Positions 40,226 through 47,743 of a DNA stretch of 64,000 nt are shown piece by piece; position 1 is the first letter of the stretch; each line of letters starts with the position of its first letter. A program made the translations under genes and the position numbers. The notes beneath the pieces were generated by a model. The model saw only the letters and a list, made by a program, of their open reading frames with translations, was not told the DNA's origin and made no database searches. The DNA lies in contig JAFVRD010000053.1 in the NCBI GenBank assembly GCA_017504435.1, forward strand, positions 62,001 to 126,000, written 5' to 3'. This DNA comes from Lentisphaeria bacterium. Its GTDB lineage: Bacteria; Verrucomicrobiota; Lentisphaeria; Victivallales; Victivallaceae.

Positions 40226-41602
40226 ATGGCAAATTCCCGTAACAAACAGCAAAGTTGTGCGTTTTGCGGGATGAAAGTCGGAGAGTCTTCTGACACATTT
40301 TTCATCCCCAGCATGTACGAGGGGCTGTATATTTGTTCTGAATGTCTGATCAAAGGCAATGAGATCGTCGGCGAAGTCAAGCATGAACGCGCCGGAAAAA
40401 CGGCGAAAAATTCGCCGGTATCCCGTTTGAATGTACCTTCACCGCAGGATATCAAAGCTGAACTTGACCGTTTTGTCATCGGACAGGAACAGGCTAAAAA
40501 AGTATTGGCAGTGGCGGTTCACAACCACTATTCCCGTTTGAAAGCCAAATTCAGCGGTAAAGATGCTGCTTTGCCTGCTGAACTTGCTGATGTCGAATTG
40601 GACAAAAGCAACGTGCTTTTGCTCGGTCCCACCGGCAGCGGCAAAACTCTGCTGGCACAGACATTGGCAAAAATGCTGGATGTGCCGTTTGCCATCACCG
40701 ATGCCACGACCTTGACTGAAGCCGGTTATGTCGGTGAAGATGTCGAGAATATTCTGCTGCGGCTGTATCAGGCATCCGGTAACGATATCGAACGTACTCA
40801 AATCGGCATTATCTACATTGATGAATTGGACAAGATTTCCCGCAAAGGTGAAAATGCGTCCATTACCCGCGATGTATCCGGGGAAGGTGTGCAGCAGGCA
40901 TTGCTGAAAATTCTGGAAGGTACGGTAGCCAATGTGCCTCCGCAGGGTGGACGCAAGCATCCGAATCAGGAATTTTTGCACATCGACACCACGAATATCC
41001 TGTTTATCTGCGGCGGAGCATTTGTCGGATTGGATAAACTTATCAAACGCCGCCGCGGCCGCCGTGTGCTGGGTTTCACCGGAGGTGAAGAAGTCAAGCC
41101 GGTCGCTGAAGAACCTGAAGAGCAGAATACTGCCAAGTTGCTTCATGAATGTGAACCTGAGGATTTGGTACATTTCGGTTTGATTCCGGAATTGATCGGA
41201 CGTCTGCCGGTATTCGCTGCATTGGAACCGTTGGACAAAGCCGCTTTGGTGCGGGTGCTGCAGGAGCCGAAAAACGCATTAGTCAAACAATATCGCCGGT
41301 TGATGGCGATGGAGGATGTGGATCTGCAGTTTACTGCGGATGCGTTGGAAGAGTTGGCAGAACGGGCTGTGAAACGCGGAACCGGTGCGCGCGGATTGCG
41401 GGCGTTGATGGAAACACTGATGTTGGATCTGATGTTTACTGCTCCTTCACATCATGGGCGGGCGGCATGCGTGGTCACTGCCGATGTGGTGCGTGGAGAA
41501 GCTCAAGCCAAATTGACCAAAGCGGCAAAATGCAAACCGCAGTGTGCCGCAGATGGTGAGGCAACCAATGGAGACACCGAACCGGAATTGGAACATGTCT
41601 GA
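40226..41602 (+). CDS. clpX: ATP-dependent Clp protease ATP-binding subunit ClpX
   Basis: AAA+ unfoldase partner of ClpP. 458 residues, somewhat longer than the usual 420. N-terminal zinc-binding domain with C11, C14, C37 and C40; Walker A GPTGSGKT (about 134-141); DELDKI Walker B; sensor region [12 protein letters not shown]. The ClpP-docking loop reads LGFTGG near residue 283 (LGF in place of IGF), the same tripeptide as in ClpC here. The extra length is a C-terminal tail of low complexity. Its last codons overlap the kinase gene. Confidence 0.96.
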
Positions 41603-42662
41603 TCCGAATACTGAAAATACAGTGGTTATTTCGGATGAGAACCGGGAATTTGACGGGGATGATCTTTTAGCGACATTGCCGTTAAAACCTCAAGATCGTT
41701 ATAAATTCATCCGCAGTATCGGATTCGGCGGTATGAAAGGGGTGTTGCTGGTACACGACCGTGATACCGGCAGGGATATTGCCATGGCGATCATGCCGGA
41801 TTTCCGGGATCGTCCGATACGTGATCTCAACCGTTTTGTCCGTGAAGCCAGAATTACAGCCAGTTTGGAGCATCCGAATATCGTACCGGTCTACGATATC
41901 GGTATTGATGCATTGGGATCGCCGTTTTTTACCATGAAGTATTTGCATGGCTGCACATTGGCGATGATTTTGCACCGTCTGCGCAGCGGTGATCCGGAAA
42001 CGATACAGGATTACAGCCAGAACCGCCTGATGCAGGTATTTTTGCGGGTGTGTAATGCGGTGGCATTTGCTCATTCCCGTAATATTTGTCACTTTGACCT
42101 CAAGCCCGGAAATATTTATTGCGGAGATTTCGGCGAAGTGCAGGTTATCGACTGGGGATTGGCGGGACCGGAATCAGATGCCTGTGAATCCGGACGGATG
42201 AAAGGTACTCCTGGCTACATGGCTCCCGAGTTGCTTGTTACCGGCGGCAAAGCCGGAAAATCCAGTGATATTTATGCGCTGGGGGCGATATTATATGCGA
42301 TTTTGACTTTGGATTCTCCGTGCGCGGGACTGCCTCAGCAGGAAATATTACGCCGCACTGCTGCAGGTAAAATCGAACCGCCGTCTCTGGTCGGGCAGAA
42401 TGTTTCTTCCGGATTGGAGGCGATTTGTCTGAAAGCTATGGCACTGCGTCCCGAGGATCGGTATGCCAATGCGGTTGAATTGCGCCGGGAGATCCAGGAA
42501 ACGTTGTCCGGTTACGCTGCCAAAGCCGAAAATGCTTCTGCGATGCGTAATGCATTACTGTTTGTCCGGCGGAATATTTACGCAGTGATCATATTTGTAT
42601 TGCTTTTGATAACCGGGTTGTTGACATATTTGGTGCTGCATTTCTATAAACAGATCCTTTGA
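41568..42662 (+). CDS. Membrane-anchored Ser/Thr protein kinase with WNK-like lysine placement
   Basis: 364 residues from ATG 41568, preferred for GGTGAGG 6 nt upstream; ATG 41595 is the alternative. Kinase domain about 45-310: glycine loop IGFGGMKGV (51-59), beta-3 strand IAMAIM (71-76) with Ala where the invariant ATP-binding Lys should be, alpha-C Glu about 93, catalytic loop HFDLKPGN (175-182, Asp kept, HRD Arg replaced by Phe), DWG (195-197) in place of DFG, APE (219-221). One transmembrane helix at about 337-358 leaves the kinase cytoplasmic with a tiny outside tail. The Lys in the glycine loop aligns with the relocated catalytic Lys of WNK kinases. Overlaps clpX by 35 nt. Confidence 0.85.
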
Positions 42663-44346: not shown

Positions 44347-44391
44347 TTTCCTGAGTGGAATTTGCCGGAAAATGAATTCAGAGTTGGAAAG

Positions 44392-45633
44392 ATGTTTCAG
44401 AAGCGTAACGTAGTATGTGCCGTGGAGATCGGGACCTCAAAAATCTGTGTTCTGATCGGAGAAGTTGATGTCCGGGGCGGTATTGCTTCCGTATTGGGGC
44501 AGGGAATCGCGGCAAGTGCCGGTTGTGTGGTCAAAGGCGAGATCGTGGATATGGAACGGTGCGCCGGTCTGCTGGGTAAGGCACTGGAAGCTGCGGATCG
44601 CAGTTCCGGCGGTGAGTTGTCCAACTGCCGGTTGTTGACAGTATTGGTGACCGGCGGCGGAGTGGATTCGTTTCAGAGCAACGGCATTGCCACAGTCAAA
44701 GGGGTTGGCGGCAATGTCAGTGAAGAAGACCGCATCGAAGCGGAATCCAATGCGAAAATCATTGATATCGGTATTGAACGTGAGATCATCAATGCCTCCA
44801 CTTCATATTTCCTTTTGGACGGCAGACGGGTGGTGAATCCGCTGCGTTTGACCGGACGTCATCTGGAAGCATGTGTGCATATCATCCATGCGTTGAGCAG
44901 CCGGATCGCCAACTTCCGGGACACGGTAATTGATGCCGGTATTGAAAATGTCCGTATTGAGTCGATTTTTTCTCCGCTGGCAGCCGGATTCGGGATTGTC
45001 GATGAGCAGGAGAAACAAAATGGCACTCTGTTGATAGATTTGGGTGCAGGCGTTACAGAATATCTGGTGTTTTTTGACCGGGGGGTCGCTGCATCCGGGG
45101 TGCTGCAGGTCGGAATGGAACATGTTGCCAATGATTTGGCGATTGCATTGGATGTCCACATAGACACCTGCCGGAAACTGCTTGAGAGCGGAGTACTCGC
45201 TCAAGCAGTCAAAGATAAGCAAAATACGCTTGAATTTGCATCTTCCGGAGGCAGGAGCCGTAAGGTTCCGGTATCCACACTGGAACTGATAGTCGATACC
45301 AGATTGCGGGAAATTTTTGAATTGATCCGGAAAAAACTTTTGGAGAAGAACATGCCGCGGGCTTTGGGATCCGGTGGTATACTTACCGGTGGCGGTGCAG
45401 AATATTTCCGTGCCAAAGAGTTGTTTACCGATGTTTTTGATCTGGCATGCCGGATCGGTGAACCGGCTGATGCCGGAGTTATCGGCGGTTTGCGGACACC
45501 ACGTTACAGTGCCGTCTGGGGAGCATTGAAAATAGCGGCATTCTTTCAGGAAAATTATGGTCCGGAACCGGAAACTCTGGTCGATCGGATCATCGGCAAA
45601 CTTGCCGGTAAATTCGGAGCGGGCAGGAAATGA
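44392..45633 (+). CDS. ftsA: Cell division protein FtsA
   Basis: Actin-like protein that tethers FtsZ to the membrane. 413 residues from ATG 44392. ATP-site blocks: CAVEIGTSKICVLIGEV (phosphate 1), TLLIDLGAGVTEYLVF (phosphate 2) and SGGILTGGGAEYF (adenosine). A 1C-like subdomain follows phosphate 1. The C terminus, LVDRIIGKLAGKFGAGRK, is a plausible amphipathic membrane-targeting helix. The stop overlaps the ftsZ start (ATGA). ftsQ and murein genes of a dcw cluster are not adjacent. Confidence 0.9.
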   Translation: MFQKRNVVCAVEIGTSKICVLIGEVDVRGGIASVLGQGIAASAGCVVKGEIVDMERCAGLLGKALEAADRSSGGELSNCRLLTVLVTGGGVDSFQSNGIATVKGVGGNVSEEDRIEAESNAKIIDIGIEREIINASTSYFLLDGRRVVNPLRLTGRHLEACVHIIHALSSRIANFRDTVIDAGIENVRIESIFSPLAAGFGIVDEQEKQNGTLLIDLGAGVTEYLVFFDRGVAASGVLQVGMEHVANDLAIALDVHIDTCRKLLESGVLAQAVKDKQNTLEFASSGGRSRKVPVSTLELIVDTRLREIFELIRKKLLEKNMPRALGSGGILTGGGAEYFRAKELFTDVFDLACRIGEPADAGVIGGLRTPRYSAVWGALKIAAFFQENYGPEPETLVDRIIGKLAGKFGAGRK

Positions 45634-46802
45634 GTAAAGCAATTACAGTTTTAGCTGCAGGCGGAGCCGGATGCCGGATCATTGCGGAGTTTGCAGCCCG
45701 GAATCCGGATGCCGGATTCCGTTTGCTGGCATTGGACAGTGATATCAGCTCTCTGCAAGCCAGTGGTTTACCTGAAGAATCACTGATTCAGGTCGGCAAG
45801 TTGTGGCGTGCCGGACGGGGTTGCGGCGGAATGGTTATGGATGGGCAGATGGCGGTTGCCAACGAGCGCAAAGTTCTGAGTTCCATACTTGCCGGGACCG
45901 AAGTTCTGTTGGTGGTTGCCGGTTTGGGAGGCGGATTGGCGACCGGAGGTTTGCCGGTCATATTCAGCGTGGCGGCAAAAATGCGTATTACTTCGGTATT
46001 GCTTTGTACGCTGCCGTTTGCCATGGAAGGTTACCAGCGGCGCAGCATGGCAGATCGCCGAATCTCTGAAGATATTATGCCGGTGGCAGATGCGGTGGTC
46101 GCGCTGCCCAATGATTTGCTTTTTAATAAACTGGATGCGGAAACACCGATATTGGATGCGTTCCGTTATTCTGACATACAAATGGCGGACAGTTTGCTGG
46201 CATTGGCGTCAATTCTTGGTGGCGGCAATCTTTTCAGTGCTGATATTGCAGCATTTACCGGCGTGTTGAAGAGGCGTCACGGTTTGTGTTCTTTGGGCGT
46301 CGGCAGAGTTGAAAACGGAGAATCCGCGCCGGAAAAAGTCGTGGAACAGTTATTGGAATCACCGTTTTTGGGCGGCAGGGAAAGTTTTGAAACTGCAGAT
46401 GCAGTGATGTTTTCATTGCTTGGCGGTGCGGAGTTGTCATTGGGAAATGCCAGAGCTGCATTGGATCTGGCGGTGCATCAGGTGTATGCACAAAACGATA
46501 AAAATATTTTGCTGGGCGCAGCAACGACTCCGGCATTGACCGGTAAATTGCAATTAACGGCGTTGACAGTGCGGTATTTGGATCGCGATTTGGAAGTTGA
46601 ACCTGAAAAAAGTAAACGGAAATCCCGGCATTCGATATCCGGTTCTGCGCATGAGAGTGGCGGAGAACAATTGGCGTTGCCGAATTTGCTTACCGAAGCC
46701 AAAGGGATCATGGAAAATACATTGCCGGTGGTAATTGATGGAATTGATTTGGATGTTCCGGCATTTAAACGGCATGGTGTGGCATTGGATTTGGGTAAAT
46801 AA
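45630..46802 (+). CDS. ftsZ: Divergent FtsZ with altered GTP-binding signature
   Basis: 390 residues, tubulin-like division protein. Recognisable from position after ftsA, the FtsZ-like run VVAGLGG...LPVIFSVAAKM, LPNDLLF (about 159-165) and the C-terminal LDVPAFKRHG (374-383), which matches the conserved FtsZ tail bound by FtsA. The tubulin signature GGGTG[ST]G is GGGLATG (100-106); the first glycine loop is AGGAGCRI; the GLGAGANP segment is AGRGCGGM. In the T7 loop N200 and D205 are kept, but the first Asp is F202. GTP turnover is therefore uncertain. ATGA coupling to ftsA. Confidence 0.88.
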   Translation: MSKAITVLAAGGAGCRIIAEFAARNPDAGFRLLALDSDISSLQASGLPEESLIQVGKLWRAGRGCGGMVMDGQMAVANERKVLSSILAGTEVLLVVAGLGGGLATGGLPVIFSVAAKMRITSVLLCTLPFAMEGYQRRSMADRRISEDIMPVADAVVALPNDLLFNKLDAETPILDAFRYSDIQMADSLLALASILGGGNLFSADIAAFTGVLKRRHGLCSLGVGRVENGESAPEKVVEQLLESPFLGGRESFETADAVMFSLLGGAELSLGNARAALDLAVHQVYAQNDKNILLGAATTPALTGKLQLTALTVRYLDRDLEVEPEKSKRKSRHSISGSAHESGGEQLALPNLLTEAKGIMENTLPVVIDGIDLDVPAFKRHGVALDLGK

Positions 46803-46816
46803 AGGAGCAGTAAAAA

Positions 46817-47098
46817 ATGTGGGAAGGGATCATGCTGATCTGTTTCGGGGTAAGTTGGCCTCCGGCAATATTGAAAACTTTGAAAGTGAAAAATCCCAAA
46901 GGTAAAAGTTTTATTTTTATGTCTTTGGTGATGTTCGGGTATTTTTGCGGTATCATGGGCAAAGTGGCATCTCAAGGGGGAAATTGTGTTGCAAACTGGG
47001 TGTTTTGGCTTTATATATTGGATTTTGCCATGGTAGCAACAGATTTTTCTCTCAGTATGTATTACACAATTCAACGCAAAAAAGAGGAGTTGGAGTAA
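46817..47098 (+). CDS. PQ-loop/SemiSWEET-like small membrane protein
   Basis: 93 residues with three transmembrane helices. GVSWPPAILKTLKVKNPKGKS after the first helix follows the PQ-loop pattern (Pro, then K/R and a Gly-Lys-Ser step), with Pro-Pro in place of Pro-Gln. WLYILDFAMVATDF is the third helix. Three-helix members dimerise and are thought to move small sugars or similar solutes; no substrate can be assigned. AAAGGAG precedes the ATG; 14 nt after ftsZ, so probably in its transcript. Confidence 0.65.
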   Translation: MWEGIMLICFGVSWPPAILKTLKVKNPKGKSFIFMSLVMFGYFCGIMGKVASQGGNCVANWVFWLYILDFAMVATDFSLSMYYTIQRKKEELE

Positions 47099-47269
47099 TA
47101 AGCAATATAATGCTGCAAAAAAATTAAAAGCTCTGTACCGAAAGAGTACTGATAAAAAAATAAAAAATATTTTTAACAATAAAATAATTTGGCAATCCTT
47201 AACGTTAATTGGTTGGAAGCACTCAAAGATGGAGTGTGGAAAACACATTATTGCAGAAAGGAAAAAGAA

Positions 47270-47743
47270 ATGAAAATCAATGTGAAATTTGTGTTGGCAG
47301 CCGCAATTGTGTGTTGCGGATATACTGTTATGGCAGGACCGCATCACCGCCATCACAAGCGGGATGGTCTTGATTTGGCAAACGGAATTGTTGATTTGGT
47401 AATGAGAGTTATTGCACCTGCGCCGGTAGTCGTTGCGCCTGCACCTGCGCCTGTGGTAGTCGCTCCTCCGCCTGCACCGGTAGTCGTTGCGCCTCCGCCT
47501 CCGCCTGCGCCGGTAGTCGTTGCACCTGCACCGGTAGTGGTTGCTCCTCCGCCTGCACCGGTAGTGGTTACGCCTGCACCGGTAGTGGTTGCTCCTCCGC
47601 CTGCACCGGTAGTGGTTACGCCGGCACCGGTAGTGGTTGCTCCTCCGCCGCGTCATTATCGTCCTGCGCCGCCGCCGCGTCATTATCGTCCTGCGCCACC
47701 GCCGCGTCACCACCGTCCTGCGCCGCCGCGTCACCACCGCTGA
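47270..47743 (+). CDS. Secreted Pro/Val/His-rich repeat protein
   Basis: 157 residues from ATG 47270 (GAAAGGA upstream); the longer frame from 47189 is unsupported. Signal peptide to about residue 22 (ending VMA), a His-rich stretch HHRHHKR, then repeats of APVVVAPPP and APVVVTP (about residues 50-125) and finally four RHYRPAPPP-type units rich in His and Arg. Predicted extended, polyproline-like, envelope-spanning or wall-associated protein; the His clusters could bind metal. Length is likely to vary between strains because of the DNA repeats. Confidence 0.7.
   Translation: MKINVKFVLAAAIVCCGYTVMAGPHHRHHKRDGLDLANGIVDLVMRVIAPAPVVVAPAPAPVVVAPPPAPVVVAPPPPPAPVVVAPAPVVVAPPPAPVVVTPAPVVVAPPPAPVVVTPAPVVVAPPPRHYRPAPPPRHYRPAPPPRHHRPAPPRHHR
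47417..47740 (+). repeat. In-frame minisatellite encoding Pro/Val repeats
   Basis: Units of about 24-48 bp built on CACCGGTAGTGGTTGCTCCT, then about 27-bp units built on CCGCGTCATTATCGTCCTGC. Adjacent copies are almost identical at the DNA level, including third positions, unlike the diverged array at 1.0-1.3 kb, which points to recent expansion. Confidence 0.75.

Follow-up and report, generated by a model that had tools for sequence, protein, structure and literature searches.

A maintained FtsZ variant with a rewritten GTPase site encoded behind ftsA in a Lentisphaeria bacterium

The single ftsZ gene found in the genome of an uncultured gut bacterium of the class Lentisphaeria encodes a protein that keeps the FtsZ fold, the place behind ftsA and the FtsA-type C-terminal tail, and in which six of nine key residues of the GTPase site are replaced. 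The gene has orthologues across its family and is under purifying selection, and the changes belong to a class-wide pattern. Our favoured reading, to which we give slightly better than an even chance, is that this protein would be a GTP-bound, low-turnover, FtsA-tethered FtsZ with little or no GTP hydrolysis. The DNA analysed, hereafter the window, is a 64,000-nucleotide stretch of contig JAFVRD010000053.1 (positions 62,001 to 126,000), in whose coordinates the division genes lie as follows.

44362..45633, + strand: ftsA (TIGR01174, 209.7 bits; cut-off 175.85)
45630..45633, + strand: ATGA overlap of the ftsA stop and the ftsZ start, within ...GGAAATGAGTAAA...
45630..46802, + strand: ftsZ variant, 390 amino acids, the sole tubulin/FtsZ-family gene found in the genome

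An earlier, sequence-only reading of this DNA had given the same coordinates for the gene, together with the ATGA overlap; both were borne out, and the open reading frame yields the 390-residue product. The ftsA start is an uncertain TTG, with an ATG 10 codons further in, and the C-terminal stretch of FtsA, VDRIIGKLAGKFGAGRK, resembles an amphipathic membrane helix by its sequence. When the genome to which the window belongs (2.26 Mb, 95.5% complete) was searched with PF00091, the ftsZ variant was the one match; the second, canonical FtsZ that would have refuted the earlier reading did not turn up. The same genome encodes FtsA (by Pfam match), two SEDS proteins and two penicillin-binding transpeptidases; the latter two sets indicate that a septal wall machinery exists. 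Other genes nearby include a Ser/Thr protein kinase (Pfam Pkinase) with a C-terminal membrane segment (41544-42662), upstream of dxr and ftsA; a small membrane protein of 93 amino acids (46817-47098), by eye of the SemiSWEET/PQ-loop type, with no Pfam match; and, as the second gene past ftsZ, a proline-rich repeat protein (PAPVVVAPP..., 47189-47743), of whose gene a long minus-strand open reading frame (46478-47737) looks like an antisense shadow.

The product passes both Pfam models of the family, Tubulin (PF00091, 53.4 bits; cut-off 33) and FtsZ_C (PF12327, 28.5 bits; cut-off 27), and does not reach the cut-off of the NCBI model TIGR00065 (128.4 bits; cut-off 295.2). Its motifs, with E. coli numbering for the replaced residues, are listed below.

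45660..45677, + strand: T1 glycine loop GGAGCR, residues 11-16, with C15-R16 where E. coli has G23-N24 (alignments)
45735..45749, + strand: T2 loop D36-S37-D38-I39-S40; N43 replaced by D36, Q47 by S40, D45 retained as D38 (alignment)
45819..45830, + strand: T3 loop G64-C65-G66-G67; A70 replaced by C65 (alignment)
45927..45947, + strand: T4 signature GGGLATG, residues 100-106; T108 replaced by L103, G109 by A104 (alignment)
46026..46040, + strand: E133...R137, equivalent to E138 and R142 (S. aureus R143), retained (alignment)
46110..46115, + strand: N161-D162 of the guanine-side loop, equivalent to E. coli N165, retained (alignment)
46173..46175, + strand: D182, equivalent to E. coli N186 and S. 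aureus D187, kept (alignment); this position is a guanine contact in FtsZ structures
46236..46253, + strand: T7 loop S203-A204-D205-I206-A207-A208; N207 replaced by Ser, D209 kept, D212 replaced by Ala (alignments and model)
46584..46664, + strand: disordered, variable linker, residues 319-345 (clade alignment; low pLDDT)
46665..46799, + strand: long C-terminal tail, conserved over residues 346-390; LDVPAFKR occupies 374-381 (alignments)

Two canonical signatures are thus absent from the protein: T4 GGGTG[ST]G, replaced by GGGLATG, and T7 NxDxxD, which has lost its Asn and second Asp and kept its first Asp. The T7 register, in which S203, D205 and A208 correspond to E. coli N207, D209 and D212, was concordant in three alignments (MAFFT with 49 relatives from the order, MAFFT with 198 sequences, and phmmer against B. 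subtilis FtsZ, which placed 'ilgggnlfsadiaaf' over 'liatpglinldfadv' gap-free). It is fixed by relatives in the order that carry SADFSDL opposite E. coli NVDFADV, and is also supported by the AlphaFold model, in which helix H8 starts at 206 as this register requires. The earlier reading of the motifs was confirmed in part. Its T4 signature, G100 to G106, agrees with translation and alignment, and the likeness of the tail LDVPAFKR to E. coli LDIPAFLR holds in the alignment with the order relatives. It had correctly noted Cys-Arg in the T1 loop and had wrongly taken these residues to replace Asn-Ala. Its assignment of F202 as the first T7 Asp was off by three residues and is ruled out by the three alignments and the model; in consequence it had interchanged the T7 residues kept and lost, D205 being the retained first Asp and A208 the position of the lost second one. 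L103 lies at the start of the helix that follows T4 (102-117 in the model), the place at which S. aureus T109 contacts the gamma-phosphate mimic (PMC8936486). The other refuting condition of the earlier reading, L103 and F202 both outside the nucleotide site, does not apply in that form, since F202 was never the T7 Asp.

Structures of S. aureus FtsZ filaments containing BeF3 and AlF4 show which residues hold Mg2+, K+, the water and the gamma-phosphate (PMC8936486), and nine of these were scored (N25, N44, D46, Q48, T109, R143, N208, D210 and D213 in S. aureus numbering). The window FtsZ carries R16, D36, D38, S40, L103, R137, S203, D205 and A208 at these positions, so that 3/9 are kept (D38, R137 and D205) and R16, D36, S40, L103, S203 and A208 are changes; E. 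coli FtsZ keeps all nine. Conservation outside the phylum is based here on E. coli, the B. subtilis phmmer alignment and the same S. aureus study.

The altered site is itself conserved. Across 16 sister species, C15, R16, D36, D38, C65, GGG100-102, E133, R137, N161, D162, D182 and D205 are invariant, and the T1 loop GGAGCR is unchanged; position 103 is L in 12, M in three and I in one, never T, and position 208 is A in eight, S in four, N in three and T in one, never D. Given this invariance within the clade, the motif changes appear to go beyond chance. The members of this clade that a scan with the 16-species alignment named are uncultured Lentisphaerae/Lentisphaeria metagenome-assembled genomes (MAGs), a number of which come from the colon of sheep and yak and from roe deer cecum; most genomes compared in this work are likewise MAGs. 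In close pairs, ftsZ has a dN/dS of 0.08-0.20, with the N-domain, C-domain and tail all constrained and the linker alone free. The AlphaFold model (pLDDT 89.7) superposes on B. subtilis FtsZ with Z 37.8 and 3.1 Å over 305 residues, giving an FtsZ fold over residues 1-317. The low dN/dS, the mostly invariant pocket and the FtsZ fold together indicate a maintained variant and not a pseudogene.

A score so far under the NCBI FtsZ cut-off could also come from a pseudogene, a sequencing artefact or a stray paralogue. We consider this highly improbable and in effect refuted, since orthologues occur in 73/78 genomes of the family, including 36/36 good ones, ftsA adjoins ftsZ in 66/71 loci of the family, and the gene is under the purifying selection described above. 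The earlier interpretation is to this extent supported: the gene is no stray paralogue, and encodes a genuine ftsA-linked FtsZ with an altered active site and an intact FtsA tail. As it further proposed, the GTPase may be altered or lost.

We infer nucleotide binding, assembly, low hydrolysis and FtsA binding along the following lines. The protein is this organism's native FtsZ, inherited at its locus behind ftsA, and folds as FtsZ; FtsA would tether it to the membrane through the tail, and it would very probably still bind guanine nucleotide. The composite GTPase site appears rewired, with T108 (gamma-phosphate), N207 (T7 Asn) and D212 (second T7 Asp) replaced, along with Q47 (the K+-lid glutamine) and the phosphate/Mg2+-side asparagines N24 and N43, while D45, R142 and D209 stay. 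Because the protein retains the base site and some of the phosphate site, and the residues on the gamma-phosphate and T7 side are mostly gone, binding with little or no hydrolysis is the expectation. The most likely outcome would be filaments or oligomers that stay GTP-bound, with hydrolysis very slow or absent, and that offer FtsA and the enzymes of the septal wall a scaffold of low turnover. Such a scaffold would resemble alpha-tubulin E254A, which gives stable GTP microtubules; E254 is presumably the equivalent of FtsZ D212.

Work on other proteins bears on this proposal in both directions. In alpha-tubulin, E254A/N blocks hydrolysis and leaves stable GTP lattices (PMC8764682), and certain FtsZ mutants of E. 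coli whose GTPase activity is strongly lowered are stated to retain rings and division (PMC8953583). In S. aureus FtsZ, T109 (equivalent to T108) hydrogen-bonds the gamma-phosphate mimic and N44 (equivalent to N43) hydrogen-bonds the Mg2+ waters, and the substitutions D213N (at D212) and N208L (at N207) abolish assembly (PMC8936486). As D213N thus removes assembly and not hydrolysis only, assembly here would need compensation within the protein, or the filaments would need FtsA on the membrane. Three further points speak against low hydrolysis: many FtsZs of the phylum have no acidic residue at 212, a loss that alone may not kill the GTPase; all 16 sisters retain D209, the residue whose swing positions the catalytic water; and the losses of T108 and D212 show no lineage-corrected association (independent-pairs test, median p 1).

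The main rival is accordingly a rebuilt, active GTPase, in which D205 places the water, R137 and the N24R and N43D swaps take over the missing functions, and the protein treadmills like other FtsZs. We regard this as possible, if improbable. It would account for the invariance of D38, R137, D205, E133, N161 and D182 in 16 species, fits with ftsZ being essential in Verrucomicrobium spinosum (PMC12283558) and with the common loss of one T7 Asp in the phylum, and draws on a tendency of positions 24 (R/K) and 43 (D) to co-vary: of 10 independent pairs, a mean of 3.3 are concordant and 0.1 opposite, a co-change that is not significant and only suggestive. It must nonetheless accommodate six changes among the nine key residues, one of which makes the gamma-phosphate position hydrophobic, and the abolition of assembly by single substitutions at N208 or D213 in S. 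aureus (PMC8936486).

Comparison across the class and phylum indicates, on sequence grounds, that the whole class is one of graded FtsZ erosion. None of 119 class genomes passes the TIGR00065 cut-off, and FtsA-family matches occur in 118/118. The mean number of key residues kept, of nine, is 6.3 in the phylum beyond this class (63 FtsZs), 3.2-4.1 in the class outside family f10 and genus g48 (3.6 in the window clade), 2.1 in f10 and 1.0 in g48. N43D is present in 119/119 family, order and other class sequences outside f10 and g48, in which position 24 is mostly Arg or Lys. Of those 63 FtsZs from elsewhere in the phylum, 35 have no acidic residue at 212, mostly with a canonical GGGTG[ST]G, so D212 loss alone is no proof of a dead GTPase. 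Where Verrucomicrobiota FtsZs have a canonical T4 (L057-L082, L170-L208), one T7 aspartate of the pair is frequently absent, with D212 changed to Thr in many and D209 to Gly in others. The C-terminal tail is conserved over about 40 residues phylum-wide (Q-L-x-L ... KGIM/KGRF ... PT ... GEDLDIPTF.RR ... D.GK), much longer in the window (46665-46799) and its relatives than the E. coli peptide, and its R379-equivalent is invariant in 197/197 sequences.

Erosion goes furthest in f10 and g48. FtsZ of f10 lies directly downstream of ftsA in 12/12 cases and ranges from full length down to 250-285 residues; the short forms (L141, L150, L151, L152, L153, L135, L154) break off behind helix H7, with T7 and the entire C-terminal domain missing, and run straight on into the tail, LGIF...GENLDIPTYxR. 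The model of one short form (pLDDT 78) matches T. maritima FtsZ with Z 24.7 as an FtsZ N-domain. In a tree of N-domains, f10 forms a single clade (99/97) within the class FtsZs, in which the short forms make up two groups whose branching order is not settled, so there were one or two losses of the C-terminal domain. FtsZ is hardly recognisable in three g48 genomes (L133, L136, L168): in its roughly 340 residues none of the GTP motifs can be made out, KVPTYKR is what is left of the tail, and ftsA does not adjoin it. The f10 mini-FtsZs, which keep the tail and the ftsA neighbour, presumably must act as adaptors, and few parts of the class FtsZs vary as little as the tail, which raises the idea that the window FtsZ, too, is nucleotide-free or GDP-locked, does not polymerise and only links FtsA to later divisome parts. 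We judge this unlikely, as the window clade conserves the C-terminal domain at N-domain-like rates, needless for an adaptor, and keeps the guanine-site residues.

Within the class, the deeper families, with almost every f10 and g48 genome sampled among them, encode a second tubulin-like protein of about 366 residues with GIGGAG, GGGTGNG and a T7-like GHIDxEDF (L165:1836-2936, L166, L169, L232-L251), on contigs of up to whole-chromosome size; the most collapsed FtsZs therefore coexist with an intact-looking second family member. Against Pfam and the PDB it gave only a PF00091 match and weak FtsZ/RepX matches, and outside the class it was clear in one genome of a 145-genome phylum sample. Among 21 genomes with both proteins, its mean pairwise identity is 55% against 27% for FtsZ, and it is the more conserved in 210/210 pairs. 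That it took over FtsZ work is a guess. It was not found in the window genome, where a role as FtsZ substitute is thereby ruled out, and a search of the window's family gave one marginal match, to an FtsZ. For Lentisphaeria as a whole, we tentatively raise the idea that FtsZ is shifting from a cytomotive GTPase to an FtsA-docking scaffold or adaptor: in the deep families it would be collapsing to N-domain and tail, with the second, conserved tubulin-like GTPase perhaps doing the filament work, and in the window's family, without the second protein, FtsZ filaments would barely hydrolyse GTP.

Set beside known systems, the window FtsZ shares with canonical FtsZ (TIGR00065; PF00091 and PF12327) the fold, the two-domain layout, the ftsA-ftsZ operon, the C-terminal FtsA/ZipA-type peptide and the residues E133, R137, N161 and D205, but differs in its score (128 bits against a cut-off of 295), T4 GGGLATG, T7 SADIAA, and N24R, N43D and Q47S. 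With Verrucomicrobiota FtsZs it has in common the extended tail (Q-x-x-L ... KGRF...PT...GEDLDIPTF.RR) and the frequent loss of one T7 Asp, although most of these retain GGGTG[ST]G, N24 and N43 (6.3/9 against 3.2-4.1/9 for the class outside f10 and g48). The alpha-tubulin mutants E254A/E254N and the non-hydrolysing tubulin N-site likewise lack the T7 acid (equivalent to D212) and keep the remaining fold, but are engineered or heterodimeric, and tubulin retains a GGGTGSG loop. Ca. Thiosymbion oneisti offers a natural FtsZ of low GTPase activity, which here is suggested by sequence, but its GTP-binding residues are identical to those of E. coli, whereas those of the window FtsZ are replaced (PMC8953583).

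A 2025 survey of PVC division genes assigned most dcw genes and binary fission to Lentisphaerota (PMC12283558), and a 2023 family phylogeny placed Verrucomicrobiota FtsZs among the most divergent (PMC9871819). Neither the loss of active-site residues nor the shortened FtsZ nor the second tubulin-like protein was described in the literature searched, and a search on pseudo-GTPase FtsZ gave no matches. In the textbook view, bacterial division runs on FtsZ treadmilling that GTP hydrolysis powers; Planctomycetes and Chlamydiae divide without FtsZ. A class in which FtsZ is eroded in graded steps, conserved in living species, would provide natural intermediates and a direct test of whether division needs hydrolysis, and, being related to Planctomycetes and Chlamydiae, bears on how division without FtsZ arose.
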